Positions 49,189-63,407 of a stretch of 64,000 nt of DNA are shown here, piece after piece. A program made the position numbers and the translations under genes. The DNA is from Ignavibacteria bacterium (lineage in GTDB: Bacteria; Bacteroidota; Ignavibacteria; Ch128b), in assembly GCA_013177855.1 (NCBI GenBank), contig JABLYA010000001.1, positions 1,901,573 through 1,965,572 of the forward strand, read 5' to 3'. Below the pieces are notes generated by a model, which worked only from the letters and a program-made list of their open reading frames with translations, had not been told where the DNA came from and did no database searches. Within the stretch, counting starts at the first letter, position 1. Every line of letters begins with the position of its first letter.

Positions 49189-50235
49189 ATGAGACTTCAC
49201 TTTTTACTTTTTTCATTAATATTTTTTGTCACTTTTAATCTCTTGCAAGCTCAAACCTCTGATCTTGAGCAGACGCTTGCAAAGATTACTGGTGATGCAA
49301 GTAAAGCTTATGTTGCTCCTATTTCTTCTGCATTCGGGGCAAATTTGAATTCAGGTTGGGTTCACAGTGCACCAAAAGCGACAAAATTCAGCTTTGATTT
49401 AGAAGTTGGTTTTGTCGCTATGGCTACTCTATTCGGTTCAAGCAACCAGACATTCGCTTCGAGTGGTAGTTTTAGATTCAATTCAGCACAAGCTGAACAA
49501 TTAATTCCACCGAATATTACCGGTTCAACGAGAACAAGCATAAAGAATGAAATTCTTTCTCGTGATTTCACTGTATCTATCTCGGGACCAACAATTGTTG
49601 GGAAGAAGACAGATTCAATTAAAGTTAAATTCCCTGGTGCTGTAATTCAAGGTCAAACACTTGGAGCAAAAGAACTTGTTCTTCCTGTTACTGGTTACCT
49701 TGAAGAATTACCAGCATTACCACTTGTTGTTCCTCAGGTTTCTCTTGGAACTGTGTTTGGAACTCAAGTGTCCTTGCGTTATTTACCTGAATTTGAAGTT
49801 AGTCCAGATTTGGGGAAATTCAAATATACCGGATTTGGAATCCAGCATAATCCAACAATGTGGCTACCTTTTTCACTGCCTGTGAATGTTTCAGTTGGAT
49901 ATTTTACACAATCACTTGAAGTAGGTAAAATCTTCAAAACATCGGCATCGATGTTTGGGGTATTTGCTTCCAAGAGATTTGGTCCCGGTGCATTGAATAT
50001 TGAACCTTATGCAGGTTTCACTCTCGAAAGCTCATCAATAGATGTTGAATATGATGTGACTTATGATACTCCAACTGGTCCATCACCAGCAAAAATTAAA
50101 TATTCACTTGAAGGAGAAAATTCAACGAGGATAACAATTGGAGCTACACTAAAGCTTTTACTTGTTGGTTTAAGTGTTGATTATAGCATTGCTAAATATA
50201 ATACAGTTAGTGCATCCCTAAACATTAAAATTTAA
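49189..50235 (+). CDS. Outer-membrane beta-barrel candidate (DUF6588-like), secreted
   Basis: 348 residues from the ATG at 49189, preceded by GGAGG (49179-49183); an ATG 48 bases upstream only adds a charged tail. Signal peptide (MRLHFLLFSLIFFVTFNLLQ, cleavage near AQT). The mature part is rich in alternating aromatic and hydrophobic residues with Gly-rich turns, ending in a terminal aromatic-poor strand 'VSASLNIKI'. Motifs such as 'YVAPISSAFGANLNSGWVHS' and 'KRFGPGALNIEPYAGFT' resemble DUF6588-type proteins found across Bacteroidota. Likely a small outer-membrane barrel of unknown role. The upstream TATATTTG at 49039 is an exact Bacteroidota -7 box but lacks a matching -33 box. A terminator follows. 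Confidence 0.75.
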   Translation: MRLHFLLFSLIFFVTFNLLQAQTSDLEQTLAKITGDASKAYVAPISSAFGANLNSGWVHSAPKATKFSFDLEVGFVAMATLFGSSNQTFASSGSFRFNSAQAEQLIPPNITGSTRTSIKNEILSRDFTVSISGPTIVGKKTDSIKVKFPGAVIQGQTLGAKELVLPVTGYLEELPALPLVVPQVSLGTVFGTQVSLRYLPEFEVSPDLGKFKYTGFGIQHNPTMWLPFSLPVNVSVGYFTQSLEVGKIFKTSASMFGVFASKRFGPGALNIEPYAGFTLESSSIDVEYDVTYDTPTGPSPAKIKYSLEGENSTRITIGATLKLLLVGLSVDYSIAKYNTVSASLNIKI

Positions 50236-56109: not shown

Positions 56110-57120
56110 ATGAAAGAATATGAAAAAGCTGGTGTAAGCATCTCCAGAGGAGATGAGTTTGTCAGGCGAATTAAGTCTTTAGTACGTTCGACTTTCTCCA
56201 AAGATAATCCAAATGCCAATAGAGTACTTTCGGATATTGGTCACTTCGGGGCTTTTTTTGATATAAATTTTAATGATTTAAAGAATCCAGTTCTTGTTTC
56301 GAGTGTTGATGGGGTTGGGACAAAACTTAAAGTCGCAATTTTGATGAATAAACACGATACAATTGGTCAGGATTTAGTCAATCATTGTGTAAACGATATT
56401 CTTTGTTCGGGGGCAAAACCATTATTCTTTCTGGATTATCTGGCTTTTGGGAAAATGAATATTGAGGTTGCCGAGCAAATTATGTCTGGATTGACTAAAG
56501 CTTGCCGTGAGAATGAATGTGCTTTAATTGGTGGTGAGACTGCAGAAATGCCGGATCTATACCAGGAAAACGATTATGATATTTCCGGAACAATTGTGGG
56601 AATAGTTGAAAGAGATAAAATTATTGATGGTAAAAAAATTTCTCCAGGTGATGTTTTAATCGGATTGAAGTCTTCAGGATTACATACCAATGGATATTCA
56701 CTCGCTCGAAAAGTTTTGTTGAAAAAATTTAGAATTGATGATTTTGTCGATGAACTGGGTTGCACTCTGGGAGAAGAGCTTCTTAAAATTCATAGATCAT
56801 ATTTCAAGATTGTTTATCCATTGCTTGACAAGTTTCAAATCAAAGGACTTTCACACATTACAGGCGGGGGAATTATTGGGAATACCAGAAGAATAATTCC
56901 GGAAGGTTTATCGATTTGGATTGATTGGAATTCCTGGAGTGTTCCACCAATTTTTGAATTAATTCAGAAAACTGGAAATGTTTCCGACGAAGAAATGCGA
57001 GAAGTTTTTAATCTTGGGATTGGTATGGTTTTAATTGTTAATAAAATGGATGTTGAAAAGGTTCAAAATGAGTTGAAGAATTCAGGTGAACAAACTTTTA
57101 TCATTGGTGAAATTAGATGA
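56110..57120 (+). CDS. purM: Phosphoribosylformylglycinamidine cyclo-ligase (AIR synthetase)
   Basis: 336 residues, full length. It performs ATP-dependent ring closure of FGAM to AIR in purine synthesis. Motifs: 'YEKAGVSISRGDEFVRRI', 'VSSVDGVGTKLKVA', 'GQDLVNHCVNDILCSGAKPL', 'LIGGETAEMPDLY', 'GDVLIGLKSSGLHTNGYSLA', 'HITGGGIIGN' and 'FNLGIGMVLIV'. All are diagnostic for PurM. It is the first gene of a block whose next member, a propeller protein, starts 4 bases before the purM stop. No other purine gene is present, so the link is likely only transcriptional. Confidence 0.97.
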   Translation: MKEYEKAGVSISRGDEFVRRIKSLVRSTFSKDNPNANRVLSDIGHFGAFFDINFNDLKNPVLVSSVDGVGTKLKVAILMNKHDTIGQDLVNHCVNDILCSGAKPLFFLDYLAFGKMNIEVAEQIMSGLTKACRENECALIGGETAEMPDLYQENDYDISGTIVGIVERDKIIDGKKISPGDVLIGLKSSGLHTNGYSLARKVLLKKFRIDDFVDELGCTLGEELLKIHRSYFKIVYPLLDKFQIKGLSHITGGGIIGNTRRIIPEGLSIWIDWNSWSVPPIFELIQKTGNVSDEEMREVFNLGIGMVLIVNKMDVEKVQNELKNSGEQTFIIGEIR

Positions 57121-58103
57121 AGAAATTTCTTCTGCTTTCTATTTTCATCTTTTCAAATTTATTTGCACAAATTGTTTTTACAGGTTATGACAGACTGAAT
57201 GAATCCGTTAAAGCATTTTACTTGAATCTTGAAAATGAACAACTAACAGAGCTTTCCTATGCAAATTCATATCTGCCGAGATGTTTAAATGGAAATCAAA
57301 TTGTCTTAAATATTGGTAATTCGATTTTCAAAGTAGATAAATTCAGAGAGAGACAGGATTATTTTTTTGAAGGATATATGCCTGTAGTTTCAAGATCGGG
57401 CAAATTTGTTGCAGCTTACTCACAAAAGGGAATTATTGTAGCTGACTCAACCGGAAAAGTTTTATCAACTCTTGAGGTTGATTACTGGAGCAAAGTCACA
57501 CCAATTTTCTCTTATGACGAAAAATCTATTTTTTATTACGATAAGAAAAGAGAAGCAACATTTAGATTTGATCTTGAAAAACAAACAAATACTTTATTTG
57601 CACACAATTTAATTCATCCAGTTTATTCACCTGATGGTGGAAAATTATTATTAAATATTGGCAAGACTGATTCAAACTTTAGAATTGGAATAGTTCAATC
57701 AGATTGGAGTGAAAATCTACCGATCAATTACATCACATCAGTTTATGAGAATGCAATTGTACCGATATGGTCTCCATCTGGAAGATATATTGCTTATATG
57801 ACTTTGCTGACAAACAAGAAAATTGAGAATTCAGATCTTATTCCAGCTAATATTATTCTTTATGATACAAGAAATGGTTCAAAGCAAATCATTACCGATG
57901 ATGCTGGATTTACTGAAGGTGCTTATCCGCAATTTTCTTTTAGTCCTGACGAAAAATATTTTTTCTATACTTCAATAAGAGACAATGGAACGGGAACAAT
58001 CGTACAATTTGATCTTTCAAATTTTTCAAAGAAAATTTTAATTACTGATCCAGAGCTTGATGCTCGAATTCCACATTACTGCAATGAAAATCCTCAACAC
58101 TAA
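57117..58103 (+). CDS. Secreted TolB-like beta-propeller protein (WD40-like / PD40 repeats)
   Basis: 328 residues with a signal peptide (MKKFLLLSIFIFSNLFA). Repeated blade motifs 'SRSGKFVAAYS', 'SYDEKSIFYYD', 'SPDGGKLLLNIG', 'SPSGRYIAYMT' and 'SPDEKYFFYTS' show a six-bladed TolB/PD40-type propeller. Propellers of this type bind peptides or lipoproteins in the periplasm; with a TPR lipoprotein, a small lipoprotein and a TonB receptor following, an outer-membrane assembly or signalling role is plausible. The ATG overlaps the purM stop by 4 bases. Confidence 0.85.
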   Translation: MKKFLLLSIFIFSNLFAQIVFTGYDRLNESVKAFYLNLENEQLTELSYANSYLPRCLNGNQIVLNIGNSIFKVDKFRERQDYFFEGYMPVVSRSGKFVAAYSQKGIIVADSTGKVLSTLEVDYWSKVTPIFSYDEKSIFYYDKKREATFRFDLEKQTNTLFAHNLIHPVYSPDGGKLLLNIGKTDSNFRIGIVQSDWSENLPINYITSVYENAIVPIWSPSGRYIAYMTLLTNKKIENSDLIPANIILYDTRNGSKQIITDDAGFTEGAYPQFSFSPDEKYFFYTSIRDNGTGTIVQFDLSNFSKKILITDPELDARIPHYCNENPQH

Positions 58104-58117
58104 GATTTAATTTTTAT

Positions 58118-60700
58118 ATGAAAAGAAATCTTTTGCTTCTACTTTTTCTTCAGCTCTTGTTCTTATCATGTTCTAAATCAAGTGAAGAATTAAAACTGGA
58201 GAGTGATAAACTTTTCAATCAAGCGATTGATTATTATGAGAGAGGATATTTGAATCAATCAGCTGACCTTTTTAAAGAAGTTGTAAATATCGAAACAAAA
58301 CTCGGGGGAATTCAGCGGAGAGCAAATAGCTATATTTATCTTGGCTTGATTTATTATCAACTTTCAGATTTTTATCAGTCAATGGATTCCTACCAGAAAG
58401 CGTTACAAGATTTCCAATCGCTAAAAGATAAACGAAGTGAATTGCTTGTGCTGAATAATATTGCTGGAATTCACTCTTTACTGGGTGAGTATGAAAAAGC
58501 TTTGAATATATATTCAGATGTTGTTGGTAAGAGTTTGATTTTTGCTGACAAAGAATCTGAGGTTATTGCATCTTTAAATATTGGTGATGTATATCAAGAA
58601 ATGTGGGATTTTGATGTTGCATTTGATTATTTCAATAAAGCTTTTGATGCTTATGAAATTCTTGGTGATTCGAAAGGGAAAATTTTTACTCTTAATAAAA
58701 TAGGAGAACTCTTTATTGCATCTAAGAATTTTTCAAATGCAATAAAAAGTTTTGATATGGCTATTGAGATTCAGAATAAAAATGGAAATAATTATCTTAA
58801 GCAGGATATTTATAATAATATTGGCTTGATTTATTTTTATCAGAATCAAATTTCCAGAGCAAAGGAGTTTTTTGAAGCCGCTCTTAATATAAGTTCCGCC
58901 TCTGAAGCAAATCAATTAATCTTAATTGCAATCAGAAATAATTTGGGCGATTGTGATTTTCAATCAGGTTCTTATTCAAGAGCTATTGATAATTATAAAG
59001 AAGCTCTTGCTTTGAGCGAACAATCTTTTCTAAAATTTCTTTCCCCAATTTTGCAGCTCAAGTTAGCTATAAGCTATGAGAAATTATATTTCATTAATCA
59101 TAATGACGCTGATAAAAAAAATGCAGAGCGTTTTTATCAATTTGCTATAAATCGATTTGAAGAAAATCGAGATGAAGAAAATTTAAACCGAGCCCTTTCT
59201 TCAATAGCTTCATTTTATGTTCGAATAGGTGAAAAGAATAAGGCAAAGAAATATTATGAAAAGCTTTATGAGCTCGCTATAAATATAAGTTTAAAACCCG
59301 ATGAACATTTAAGACCATTTGCAATCAAACCTGATTTTGATTTTGCATTTCTTCAGGCGTTGATCGAAGAAGAAAAATTTGATCAAGCTTACAGGATAAT
59401 CTATCTTAAAAAGGTCAAGGATTTGCTTGAATATTCTTTGCGTTTCCGTGATTTTAATTTTCTTGACAACACAAAAGAAACATTACAAAAATTCAAAAAT
59501 GAAATTTTAGCTCTAAACAGTTATCAACAAATCTTGAGACAGGAACTTAGCCTTCCTTCTTCTCAACGAATTAAAGAAAAATATAACAAAGCTTCTAAGT
59601 TTTGTGATGAAAAATCTAAAAATGCAGAAGAATATCTTAAAAGACTTTCTGAAAAATTTATTTTTCTCAAACCATTAAAAGAGAAAAATTTCAAAGACTT
59701 AATTGAACCAGATGATAAAATTTTTGTGGAGTTTTATCCTGCAGGAGAAAATCTTATTTACTTTGTAATTGGGAAAAAAGGGATCCAGGCTAAAACATTA
59801 AAGGCAGATTTAACAAGTCTTAATTTCAATTCTAATATTATATTAAAAAACATAAACACTTTTTCAATCGACCAAGTCGTTAACTTCTCTCGAGATAACT
59901 TGAGCTGGTTAATTGACGATTTATTAAAGAGCATCGAACAAAATTTTACATCAGTAAAAGAAATTTCTTTTATGCTCAATGGTTCGGAACTTGATTTTGT
60001 ACCTCATCTGATTTATTCGAAAAGATTAAATGATTTTTTAAGAGGTAAGTATTTTATCTCTTATTCATATCTCCCAATTTCAAAATCAAGTGCTGGTGAT
60101 ATTAAAAGTTTTGCAATTCTCAGGCAAAGTAGACTTGTCGATTTTGAAGATTTAAGAGGCAACGATAAAACTCAATTAGTCTCCAGAGAAAAATCTTTAT
60201 CCGATAAATCAAAGCTTCGAGTTGGACTTAAAGATGAAAAAACTAATAAAATAAACAATGAAGATTTTGGTTTAAATAAACACTTTGATGCTGTTTTTGT
60301 TCACGATAGACTTTTTATCAACGAGACTTCACCTGAGTTGATTTATATTCAGTCTACTGCCAATGGTTCAAATTTAAAATCAAAAAGCTCAAAAAGAATA
60401 TATCTAAAGGAAATTTTCCGACTAAGCCCAGGTTTAATTCTCTTAAAAAATTTTGATGTCGAAACAAAATCATCTTATTTAAATTTTTTAAGTTTATTTT
60501 CACTCTTAAAACCGGCAGTGATAATTTTCCCAATTACAAATACGGATCAGGAATTATCTGAAAACTTTTTGTATAATTACAAAGAGAGAGCGGAGAATAA
60601 AAACCTGAAAGAGGCATCGATAATATTCTGGAAAATGATTTCGGAAAATCAAAAAGAAAGTTTTAAAAATTCTCTTATTTGGATAAGCTTCAAAAATTAA
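58118..60700 (+). CDS. TPR-repeat lipoprotein with C-terminal degenerate CHAT (caspase-like) domain
   Basis: 860 residues. Lipoprotein signal with lipobox 'FLSC'. About eight TPR units follow (about 25-430; each has a G/A-Y-A-like core, e.g. 'IAGIHSLLGEYEKALNIY', 'IGLIYFYQNQISRAKEFF'). A helical linker (430-540) leads into a CHAT domain (about 545-860): 'FVEFYPAGENLIYFVI', 'SFMLNGSELDFVPHLIYSK', 'FISYSYLPISKSS', 'RIYLKEIFRLSPGLILL' and the end 'NSLIWISFKN', which align with CHAT landmarks. The catalytic Cys of the usual LSAC motif is absent ('LILLKNFD') and the HG dyad histidine is not in place, so peptidase activity is unlikely. It may serve as a scaffold or sensor in the outer membrane. Confidence 0.85.
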   Translation: MKRNLLLLLFLQLLFLSCSKSSEELKLESDKLFNQAIDYYERGYLNQSADLFKEVVNIETKLGGIQRRANSYIYLGLIYYQLSDFYQSMDSYQKALQDFQSLKDKRSELLVLNNIAGIHSLLGEYEKALNIYSDVVGKSLIFADKESEVIASLNIGDVYQEMWDFDVAFDYFNKAFDAYEILGDSKGKIFTLNKIGELFIASKNFSNAIKSFDMAIEIQNKNGNNYLKQDIYNNIGLIYFYQNQISRAKEFFEAALNISSASEANQLILIAIRNNLGDCDFQSGSYSRAIDNYKEALALSEQSFLKFLSPILQLKLAISYEKLYFINHNDADKKNAERFYQFAINRFEENRDEENLNRALSSIASFYVRIGEKNKAKKYYEKLYELAINISLKPDEHLRPFAIKPDFDFAFLQALIEEEKFDQAYRIIYLKKVKDLLEYSLRFRDFNFLDNTKETLQKFKNEILALNSYQQILRQELSLPSSQRIKEKYNKASKFCDEKSKNAEEYLKRLSEKFIFLKPLKEKNFKDLIEPDDKIFVEFYPAGENLIYFVIGKKGIQAKTLKADLTSLNFNSNIILKNINTFSIDQVVNFSRDNLSWLIDDLLKSIEQNFTSVKEISFMLNGSELDFVPHLIYSKRLNDFLRGKYFISYSYLPISKSSAGDIKSFAILRQSRLVDFEDLRGNDKTQLVSREKSLSDKSKLRVGLKDEKTNKINNEDFGLNKHFDAVFVHDRLFINETSPELIYIQSTANGSNLKSKSSKRIYLKEIFRLSPGLILLKNFDVETKSSYLNFLSLFSLLKPAVIIFPITNTDQELSENFLYNYKERAENKNLKEASIIFWKMISENQKESFKNSLIWISFKN

Positions 60701-60713
60701 GCAGGCGTTTAAG

Positions 60714-61217
60714 ATGATAAAAAAATTTTTCATCCTATTTTTCTTCTTGATTGTTCTATTCATTGGCTGCGATCACGGAATTGCACCGAGAGTTGAACCA
60801 CCGAGGACAGGATTTTCTGGCAAGATCATTTTCAAAAACAGTTGGCCCTCAGATATTTATCAAACAAGGGTTGTTGCATTTCGCGAAACTATAAGAACAG
60901 TCGCTGATTTCAATATTTTTAACATCGGTTTTATTAGCGACACAATTCCTTATGGCGTGAGCGAATTTATATATGAATCGGACAAAAATCCTTTAATCGA
61001 ACCACAAGCTGGCACAGTGCTAAAATATATTGTTGTTGCTCAGTCGATTGTTCCAAATCCACTTCCAAGAAGAGAGGACTGGCGCGTTGCTGGAATTTAT
61101 TTTGATCCAAATGATTCAACAAAATATGGTTCAGTTAAAATTGAAGAAGGAATATTCAAGAGAAATATAAACATTATCGTAGATTTCAATAATCCGCCCG
61201 TTCAACCACCACAATAG
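60714..61217 (+). CDS. Small lipoprotein, probably partner of the TonB receptor
   Basis: 167 residues. Lipoprotein signal with lipobox 'FIGC'. The mature part is beta-rich ('GFSGKIIFKNSWPSDIYQTR', 'VLKYIVVAQSI', 'GIYFDPNDSTKYGSVKIEEG') with a Pro-rich end, and reads as one carboxypeptidase-regulatory- or Ig-like domain. No family recognised. It sits 9 bp before the TonB-dependent receptor, an arrangement common for receptor-associated surface lipoproteins, although SusD homology is not visible. Confidence 0.75.
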   Translation: MIKKFFILFFFLIVLFIGCDHGIAPRVEPPRTGFSGKIIFKNSWPSDIYQTRVVAFRETIRTVADFNIFNIGFISDTIPYGVSEFIYESDKNPLIEPQAGTVLKYIVVAQSIVPNPLPRREDWRVAGIYFDPNDSTKYGSVKIEEGIFKRNINIIVDFNNPPVQPPQ

Positions 61218-61226
61218 AGAGGTTAT

Positions 61227-63407
61227 ATGAAATCAAAATTTTTACTTTTTGTTTTTCTTTTAATCGCAATAAATCTACAGGGGCAGCAAAAAAGACAATT
61301 TGGAATTCTGGAAGGAAAAGTAATTGATGAAACAGGTCAGCCATTAATTGGTGCAAATATAAGAATTGAGAATACACTAATTGGCGCCGCTACAAATCGC
61401 AAAGGAATGTTCAGGATAATCCGTGTGCCCGTTGGCTTTCACAAAGTTAGATTCTCAATGGTAGGTTATGAACAAAAAATTATTGATGTGGAAATTAAAC
61501 TTAATCAAACAACTTTTGTTGAAGTTCAATTGCAGCAAGTCGCAATTCAAACAAATGAGATATTTGTAACAGCAAGTAAGTATGAACAGAAATTGTCCGA
61601 AATTCCAATAAGTGTTAGTGCTTTGAGTTCGCAAGAACTTTCTCAAAGAAATATTAAGAGATTTGATGAAGCTTTGAGATTTGTCTCAGGAATTAATATG
61701 ACATCTGACCAGATTAGCATTCGAGGTTCGAGCGGTTATACTCGTGGTGCTGGCAGTCGAGTTCTTCTTTTATTCGATGGAATACCGCTATACACTGGTG
61801 ATACAGGTGATATCATCTGGCAATTGATTCCAATTCAAGAAATTGAAAGAGTTGAAGTTGTAAAATCAGCAGGTTCGGCACTTTATGGTTCACAAGCAAT
61901 TGGCGGAGTGATTAATGTTGTTTCAAAAGATTTTTCTGGTACTCCTGTAACTTATTTTAAAACATTAGGTGGATTTTATGATAAGCCTTATTATAAAGAA
62001 TGGAATTGGTCACCACGAACGAGATACTTCAACAATTTAACACTTTCACATACGAGAAAAATTGGTGATGTAGGATTAACGGTTTCAGCTTCCCGGTTTG
62101 AAGATGATTCTTATAAAATGAATGCTTTCACAAAGAGATATTCTTTATTTGTTAAATCGAAGTTTAATATTAATCCAACCAATAATATTTCATTTTTATT
62201 TCACGGTACAACTTATAAAAGTGGAAGTTATCTTTACTGGCAAGATTCACGAAACGCATTAATTCCGCCTGCTGGACAAATTGGTCAATGGGTAAAAACT
62301 TTGAGATACAATGTTCATCTGAATTATCAAAATCTTTACTCAGCCAATACACTTTTCAATTTTCGTAATAGCTGGTTTCACAACGATTGGTGGGATAATA
62401 CAGAAGCAAACAATAGTTCAAAAAGTGAATACATAAGGAGTGAGCTATCCGTAAATTATTTCCCGAATGATATACATAAAATTGTTGCTGGCGTCGAAGG
62501 GAGTTATTCCGTTGTAAGTTCAAATATATTTTCAAATCCAACAGCTTTTGGTTTAGCTTTATTTGGACAGGATGAGTTCAGATTAATTCAGCAGTTGAAA
62601 ATGACTACAGGTCTTCGAATTGATTATCAGAATGTTGAAAATACATTGAGCGAATTAAACTTTAATCCAAAGATTGCATTTAATTATGCATTGCAAGATA
62701 ATTTTTATTTAAGAGCATCTGCTGGTAGAGGTTATCGTGCGCCCACACCTTCTGAATTGTTCAGCACCACTAATGTAAGTGGAATTAGAGTTGTCCCTAA
62801 TCCAAACTTAAAGTCAGAATCCAGTTGGTCATTTGAAGCAGGAATGAATTACACAATTGAAGATCTTTACAAGTTTGATTTTGCTCTTTTTGATAATGAA
62901 CTTTACAATTTTATTGAACCATCGATTGATCCATTAACAAGTTTTATTCAATTTAAAAATGTAACTCGAGCAAGAATTCTAGGTTATGAACTTAATTTTG
63001 CATCAGAATTCTTTAATAAAAGTTTATCAGTAAATTTAGGTTACACTTACCTTTGGGCGCGTGATTTGAAAAACAATATCTTTTTGAAATACAGACCCCG
63101 GCATTTGCTTTATGTATCTTCAAATTACAAGTATGATTTCGTTCAGCTTGGAATTGATTTTCGTTATTGGAACAGGCTTGAAACTATTGATGAAGATTTA
63201 ATTAATCTTGGAATTGTAAAAGACGGTGATTTGAGGGATAAAGTTTTTTTAACGGACTTAAATCTTTCTTTTGATTTATTCCATTTCAAAATTCCTTTAA
63301 GAATATATTTCACTGTTAATAACCTTTTAAATTATAATTACATTGAGATGATAGGAAATCTTGGACCAATCAGATCATTCACAATATCGGTTGAGGGAAT
63401 TTTGTAA
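61227..63407 (+). CDS. TonB-dependent outer-membrane receptor with N-terminal carboxypeptidase-regulatory-like domain
   Basis: 726 residues. Signal peptide (about 1-20), then a beta-sandwich regulatory domain (about 28-110, 'LEGKVIDETGQPLIGANIRI' and 'GFHKVRFSMVGYEQKIIDVE'), a plug domain with the TonB-box-adjacent 'NEIFVTASKYEQKLSEIPIS' and 'SIRGSSGYTRGAGSRVLLLF', 'GSALYGSQAIGGVINVVSK', and a 22-strand barrel ending in the terminal-strand region 'GPIRSFTISVEGIL'. It imports a large ligand (siderophore, cobalamin or glycan) using TonB energy. The ligand is unknown. The window begins with a BtuF-like protein and holds a corrinoid enzyme, so B12 is one candidate. The GAGAGG ribosome binding site is 7 bases upstream. 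Confidence 0.94.
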   Translation: MKSKFLLFVFLLIAINLQGQQKRQFGILEGKVIDETGQPLIGANIRIENTLIGAATNRKGMFRIIRVPVGFHKVRFSMVGYEQKIIDVEIKLNQTTFVEVQLQQVAIQTNEIFVTASKYEQKLSEIPISVSALSSQELSQRNIKRFDEALRFVSGINMTSDQISIRGSSGYTRGAGSRVLLLFDGIPLYTGDTGDIIWQLIPIQEIERVEVVKSAGSALYGSQAIGGVINVVSKDFSGTPVTYFKTLGGFYDKPYYKEWNWSPRTRYFNNLTLSHTRKIGDVGLTVSASRFEDDSYKMNAFTKRYSLFVKSKFNINPTNNISFLFHGTTYKSGSYLYWQDSRNALIPPAGQIGQWVKTLRYNVHLNYQNLYSANTLFNFRNSWFHNDWWDNTEANNSSKSEYIRSELSVNYFPNDIHKIVAGVEGSYSVVSSNIFSNPTAFGLALFGQDEFRLIQQLKMTTGLRIDYQNVENTLSELNFNPKIAFNYALQDNFYLRASAGRGYRAPTPSELFSTTNVSGIRVVPNPNLKSESSWSFEAGMNYTIEDLYKFDFALFDNELYNFIEPSIDPLTSFIQFKNVTRARILGYELNFASEFFNKSLSVNLGYTYLWARDLKNNIFLKYRPRHLLYVSSNYKYDFVQLGIDFRYWNRLETIDEDLINLGIVKDGDLRDKVFLTDLNLSFDLFHFKIPLRIYFTVNNLLNYNYIEMIGNLGPIRSFTISVEGIL

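Follow-up and report, generated by a model that had tools for sequence, protein, structure and literature searches.

A TPR lipoprotein of Ignavibacteria with a CHAT-derived C-terminal domain that lacks the catalytic dyad and is predicted to be non-proteolytic

Introduction

In the literature, CHAT proteins figure as proteases with roles in defence and signalling. The closest described system is the TPR-CHAT protein (Csx29; PF12770) of Craspase, from type III-E CRISPR. It shares with the protein analysed here a TPR superhelix, a linker and a C-terminal CHAT domain; in the excerpt of PMC9729208 on which we draw its dyad is H585/C627, whereas the protein described below is without a His-Cys dyad and carries a lipoprotein signal. 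According to an excerpt of PMC9935389, the N-terminal domain of TPR-CHAT lowers target RNA access and cleavage in one Craspase, while another study found no such effect. The regulating part in that account is the N-terminal domain and not CHAT, and by analogy Craspase can serve as a precedent for regulation by TPR-CHAT through binding, via its N-terminal domain. Dead caspase relatives are already known, too. As far as the excerpt of PMC6426788 goes, the pseudo-orthocaspases (dead p20) of Cyanobacteria and Alphaproteobacteria have lost the His-Cys dyad, and some of them carry TPRs. They and our protein are alike in being caspase-fold kin without the dyad; they differ in having p20 (family C14) rather than CHAT, in the C-terminal position of their TPRs and in their lineages.

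A combination of propeller and TPR lipoprotein is familiar from the accessory pair of the BAM machinery, in which BamB, a propeller, and BamD, a TPR lipoprotein, serve at the outer membrane. The pair described below has the same two kinds of component; the likeness is offered as a comparison of parts. Among the matches listed in the open-access literature, the scope of our search, there was no account of dead bacterial CHAT families. A Leptospira paper (PMC8055020) was set aside, as in the excerpt "CHAT domain" and "catalytically inactive" co-occur by chance. Families that have given up the dyad but retained both the fold and constant gene partners would make the case that TPR-CHAT can work as a binding module by itself; they would also caution against equating a "CHAT domain" annotation with a protease. 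Here we analyse a candidate of this kind, encoded in a stretch of 64,000 nucleotides of an Ignavibacteria genome, hereafter called the window.

Results and Discussion

The gene, the parts of its product and the neighbouring genes lie at the following positions of the window:

57117..58103, + strand: secreted TolB-like PD40 beta-propeller (PF07676), 14 bases upstream of the TPR-CHAT gene
58118..60700, + strand: TPR lipoprotein with a CHAT-derived C-terminal domain, predicted to be catalytically dead; 860 aa, single ORF
58118..58171, + strand: residues 1-18 (FLS-C18), predicted from the sequence to be a signal peptide with lipobox
58181..59278, + strand: TPR solenoid, residues ~22-387 (Pfam TPR models; AlphaFold2 helices, pLDDT mostly high)
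59342..59650, + strand: helical linker, residues ~409-511 (AlphaFold2 secondary structure, mixed pLDDT; alignment)
59678..60697, + strand: pseudo-CHAT domain, residues ~521-860, ~340 aa (hhalign against the active CHAT profile, with controls)
60308..60310, + strand: catalytic His site, occupied by Arg731 (multiple alignment)
60452..60454, + strand: catalytic Cys site, occupied by Phe779 (multiple alignment)
60714..61217, + strand: small conserved lipoprotein outside the known families (NCBIfam silent, Pfam with a single match at chance level)
61227..63407, + strand: TonB-dependent receptor with a CarbopepD_reg_2 domain (PF00593, PF07715, PF13715)

The reading frame proposed in the initial annotation, 58118-60700, is exact. 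PF13424 (E 6.5e-37) gives strong evidence for its TPRs, and TPR and TPR-like models are the only Pfam matches in the protein. Pfam, AlphaFold2 and hhalign together give the order TPR, linker, CHAT-derived domain, and part of the linker aligns by hhalign with that of active TPR-CHAT proteins. Lipid anchoring, which the initial annotation had claimed, is borne out as a prediction: seven family rows, among them that of the window protein, reach the N-terminus, and the lipobox cysteine, Cys18, can be read in all seven. The -3 residue of the lipobox is Phe in the window protein, a position where Leu is usual. We infer an exported and lipid-anchored lipoprotein. Identification with PorW/SprE, BamD or similar TPR lipoproteins was rejected, with no NCBIfam model near its cut-off; one related protein, in G156, has a weak, generic TPR match to the BamD model (E 0.00024, 20.7 bits against a cut-off of 81.4). 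A scan for promoters and terminators gave nothing beyond the level of shuffled sequence.

The C-terminal domain is, as judged by profile comparison, derived from CHAT. The comparison with PF12770 that had been proposed earlier gave no match, either for the window protein (E up to 1) or for the C-terminal part of the five members of the window's taxonomic family (0/5, E up to 10); the last 431 residues of the window protein have no Pfam match whatever, and when whole genomes were searched with PF12770, none of the six genomes of that family gave a match. Relatives were taken from whole genomes, together with CHAT proteins of the same class, and profiles were compared by hhalign. The five-row family profile scores 57.3 against active CHATs, over 367 columns and nearly end to end, and 65.2 over 369 columns against a second group of proteins, D2. 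Its controls against active CHATs remain far lower (100 column shuffles with a mean of 13.1 and a maximum of 21.5; reversed profile 15.9), as do those against D2 (shuffle maximum 20.8; reversed 11.2). Three remoter members, G156, G271 and G390 of the taxonomic family f22, were accepted as orthologues by gene order and a full-length score of 251-285 bits. With these added, the eight-row profile reaches a score of 125.4 against active CHATs (probability 98.6, 352 columns), its 50 shuffles giving at most 18.0, and the remoter members alone score 121.8. Two of these three match the N-terminal part of PF12770 with E 0.0021 and 0.00087 (18.0 and 19.3 bits, below the cut-off of 24); the third has no match. 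When single active CHATs are set against the eight-row profile, 12 of 19 exceed every shuffle (21.2) and seven do not, so the signal needs a profile on both sides. Circularly shifted profiles were rejected as a control: they score like the real profile (up to 65.1 and 57.6), local alignment finding the same blocks.

In the alignment LILLKNFD lines up with LVVLSACE, VFVHDRLF with the HATHG block, and WISF with the terminal WAxF block. Thus the CHAT order, the substituted LVVLSACE block and the terminal block described in the initial annotation are confirmed by profile-profile alignment. AlphaFold2, with three usable alignment rows, builds the TPR half as a solenoid and gives the C-terminal domain a pLDDT mostly below 50 in the full model and of 40.5 when modelled alone. 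As there is no confident model of the domain, its CHAT fold rests on the profile comparison. A Foldseek search with the low-confidence model returned six Craspase TPR-CHAT chains in the top 40 (E 0.0099-0.16), beside Argonaute and unrelated folds, and these matches are not significant; a profile search of the PDB with the family alignment returned one chance-level chain (E 2.5).

How far does the family extend? Searching 391 genomes of the class with the eight-row profile gave no member beyond the known eight. These score 418-486 bits by construction; the three remoter members are part of the profile, and only the absence of further members is new. The next best are 24 places, all at 50 bits or less, and the seven of them whose sequence was inspected (G037, G148, G195, G262, G315, G336, G379) are all CHAT-type. 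The five-row C-terminal profile missed G156, G271 and G390 in the same 391 genomes.

Both catalytic residues are lost in all eight members. In a 38-row alignment, His and Cys stand in their columns in 19/19 active-type comparators, in none of the 11 D2 rows and in none of the eight rows of the window family. The eight have, row by row, R,E,S,S,N,E,P,G in place of the His and F,I,I,N,V,N,F,I in place of the Cys. Seventeen of the comparators came from the PF12770 ranking and two (L173, L174) were added after they looked active; L048, whose frame continues past the domain and which has HG and a Cys by eye, was excluded. The cysteines of the window protein are residues 18, 279 and 496, leaving its pseudo-CHAT domain without any. 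A restored Cys-His dyad, which the initial annotation had named as a refutation of its reading, is excluded at the sequence level for the window protein. The inactivated CHAT domain of the initial annotation is upheld by these counts, and the survey of homologues for the same loss, which it had suggested, finds the dyad absent from all eight members found. Given the loss of the dyad, the domain is presumed to be without proteolytic activity. Near its first strand block, the window domain carries a histidine, His630 (60005-60007), in a P-H or P-x-H motif.

The gene directly upstream of the dead TPR-CHAT gene is that of the propeller in all eight member genomes, a count biased towards adjacency, as the three remoter members were reached via a propeller search. 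The propeller scores 41 bits against TIGR02800, far below the cut-off of 343. In the window operon the intergenic gaps are 14, 13 and 9 bases, and the order purM, propeller, TPR-CHAT gene, small lipoprotein, TonB receptor is identical in the window, G001 and G003. G004 conserves it from the propeller onward, with a different gene upstream, and G002 keeps it split across two contigs. In G005, the sixth genome of the window's family, neither the TPR-CHAT gene nor the propeller nor the small lipoprotein has a match. Within f22 the propeller occurs in 9/80 genomes (E up to 1e-12): G271 has the whole gene set; G156 and G390 have the propeller followed by the TPR-CHAT gene, beyond which the stretch read shows no receptor pair; G182, G409, G236 and G430 have the propeller and the receptor pair without the TPR-CHAT gene; G336 has purM and the propeller only; and in G420 the gene downstream of the propeller is cut by the contig end. 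The TPR-CHAT gene was thus not found in six of 14 propeller genomes (G182, G236, G336, G409, G430 and, at its contig end, G420), which indicates that the propeller does not need the TPR-CHAT protein. A Fisher test on whether the TPR-CHAT gene and the propeller occur together was discarded, because the propeller had been searched in fewer than the 391 genomes. Within the family, identity is 58-83% for the small lipoprotein, 49-70% for the propeller and 30-48% for the TPR protein.

Taken together, we favour the reading that the protein is a non-proteolytic, membrane-tethered scaffold that works with the TolB-like propeller, and give it a probability of about 0.6. A TPR superhelix would be joined to a caspase/separase-like CHAT domain that, having lost its His-Cys dyad, would no longer cut proteins. 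After export the protein would be anchored through Cys18, most likely at the outer membrane, and there act as a protein-binding scaffold or assembly factor. Its main partner would be the secreted propeller encoded just upstream; in the lineage of the window, both genes share an operon with the small lipoprotein and the TonB-dependent receptor. The scaffold role is suggested by the architecture, as both the TPR solenoid and the dead protease fold would be expected to bind proteins, and contact with the propeller by the constancy of the neighbouring gene. The initial annotation had proposed an outer-membrane scaffold or decoy. The scaffold is plausible and can be tied to the propeller; for a decoy we found nothing. 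Nor did the role in defence gain ground: the PADLOC matches were limited to a generic TPR model (E 2.2e-11) and a single, weak candidate model (E 0.0028). A further difference from Craspase is that, by eye, none of the ORFs between window positions 50000 and 64000, six of which were scanned with Pfam, looks like a CRISPR-type gene.

The protein could, on the other hand, be a decaying remnant, in which the TPR part alone is useful and the former CHAT domain is a functionless tail that drifts. The domain does evolve faster than the rest. Identity of the seven other members to the window protein is 15-35% in the domain versus 26-60% in residues 1-430, the corresponding values for G001 being 33% versus 60% in the TPRs, and it is this difference that keeps the reading alive. 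Tyr743 is the sole invariant residue in the C-terminal 420 across the eight members. Drift without function is nevertheless at odds with several observations. All seven unbroken members, across two taxonomic families, keep full-length, stop-free frames; the eighth, in G002, is split by contig ends, its row consisting of the C-terminal 647 residues with the N-terminal piece on another contig (L177). Among the five same-family members the blocks NGxELDF and FLYNY are kept, and CHAT ancestry can still be detected over the 352 columns mentioned above. We consider decay unlikely, if still deserving of attention.

In another reading the protein belongs to the uptake system of the TonB receptor and acts on the receptor or its ligand rather than on the propeller. 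Six of the eight genomes do share the operon, namely all five of the window's family in which the gene occurs, and G271. The small lipoprotein gene is, however, widespread (118/197 genomes of the class), and at 17 of the 19 loci fetched outside the window's family it lies beside a receptor gene; at none of the 19 does a TPR-CHAT gene adjoin the pair (the contig of L142 stops a little way upstream). At L151 and L158 the small lipoprotein is missing from the gene caller's output, and at L156 a weakly TPR-like gene lies some kilobases upstream of the pair. Also against this reading, the gene in G156 and G390 follows the propeller and has no receptor behind it in the stretch read. Given that the propeller is constant in all eight genomes, whereas the receptor pair occurs without the TPR-CHAT gene, we conclude that propeller and dead TPR-CHAT protein form one unit, and small lipoprotein and receptor a separate, more widespread one. 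A part in receptor function is therefore improbable, to much the same degree as decay. The initial annotation had set the gene next to a propeller and a TonB receptor; the former neighbour holds throughout, while the latter is separated from it by the small lipoprotein gene and is more loosely tied.

Might the domain be a working enzyme with an active site other than the Cys-His dyad? Pseudo-enzymes sometimes acquire new chemistry, and the P-H or P-x-H motif raises this prospect slightly: by pattern it occurs in 6/8 members of the window family and 11/11 D2 proteins, but in 4/19 active comparators, and in the remaining two of the eight the motif His can be seen by eye, after Ser instead of Pro. 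The histidine occupies one column in the five same-family members and lies one residue along in the three remoter ones, and no conserved Cys partner for it was found. Against an enzyme of another kind, no Cys, His, acidic, Ser, Thr or Lys column within the domain is kept in all eight members; beyond residue 521, at least six of the eight agree in the columns L, F, I, L, N, F, N, P, Y, N, P, Y, E. We regard such activity as very unlikely. Least credible of all is that the domain is not CHAT-derived and merely has the likeness of any alpha/beta domain: the silence of PF12770 in the five same-family members, the low-confidence models and the seven unremarkable single CHATs would fit, but the order of TPR, linker and CHAT is the same, two remoter members match PF12770 below its cut-off, and no shuffled, reversed or unrelated control exceeds 21.5, among them nine families or proteins, several of them alpha/beta (SDR, LOG-like, Usp, purM, TatD-like, GDPD-like, adk-like, propeller and TonB receptor, named partly by eye), whose scores of 12.4-18.2 against the eight-row and 12.1-17.6 against the five-row profile lower its standing.

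Loss of the dyad has a parallel within the class. D2 is a second, wider TPR-CHAT family of Ignavibacteria, with other neighbours and likewise without the dyad. It shares with the window family (D1) the TPRs and the dyad-less CHAT domain and differs in its PF12770 match (the members tested exceed the cut-off), in its gene neighbours (at L051-L056, genes that by eye are adk-like and GDPD-like) and in its place in the trees. An eight-row D2 profile matches 34/197 genomes with E up to 1e-25, the weakest matches being long CHAT proteins of another kind. Among the best 30 loci, 28 lack both residues; L217 has the His only, and L218 (in G148), a much longer protein that groups with active CHATs, keeps both. 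Glu or Asp stands at the His column in 22/30 of the loci and a loose lipobox pattern is found in 19/30, most D2 frames being 855-928 aa long. The D2 rows and loci include L051-L060, L175, L190-L217 and L219; ten of the 30 loci repeat genomes of the 11-row alignment set, and L049 and L050 are from genomes already counted as D2. Trees separate D1, D2 and active CHATs into three groups; they are unrooted, and the composition of many of their rows is deviant, and they would fit either one loss of the dyad or two. It is conceivable, though we hold it as a doubtful extension, that in Ignavibacteria TPR-CHAT proteases gave rise to two separate families whose proteins no longer cut and are, at least in part, lipid-anchored, that D1 forms a new outer-membrane complex with its dedicated propeller, that the dead CHAT domain holds a tail of the partner or a ligand uncleaved, and that the motif His of both dead families lies in a new binding site.

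Other CHAT and caspase-like proteins of the class were seen in passing. Frames of 1849-1886 aa in G148, G182, G217 and G366 match the linker and the first part of CHAT in the D1 profile; that of G148 is L218, which keeps the dyad. In G262 (L176:3623-6926) a TPR-CHAT frame ends inside CHAT, and a frame with the half that holds His and Cys is found on the other strand, in tail-to-tail orientation, which reflects either an inversion or an assembly fault. Three stretches fetched for weak CHAT matches (L062:5926-8307, L063:6162-8609, L064:4938-7367) encode caspase-like proteins of another type, with GHG and DACHSG motifs by eye.
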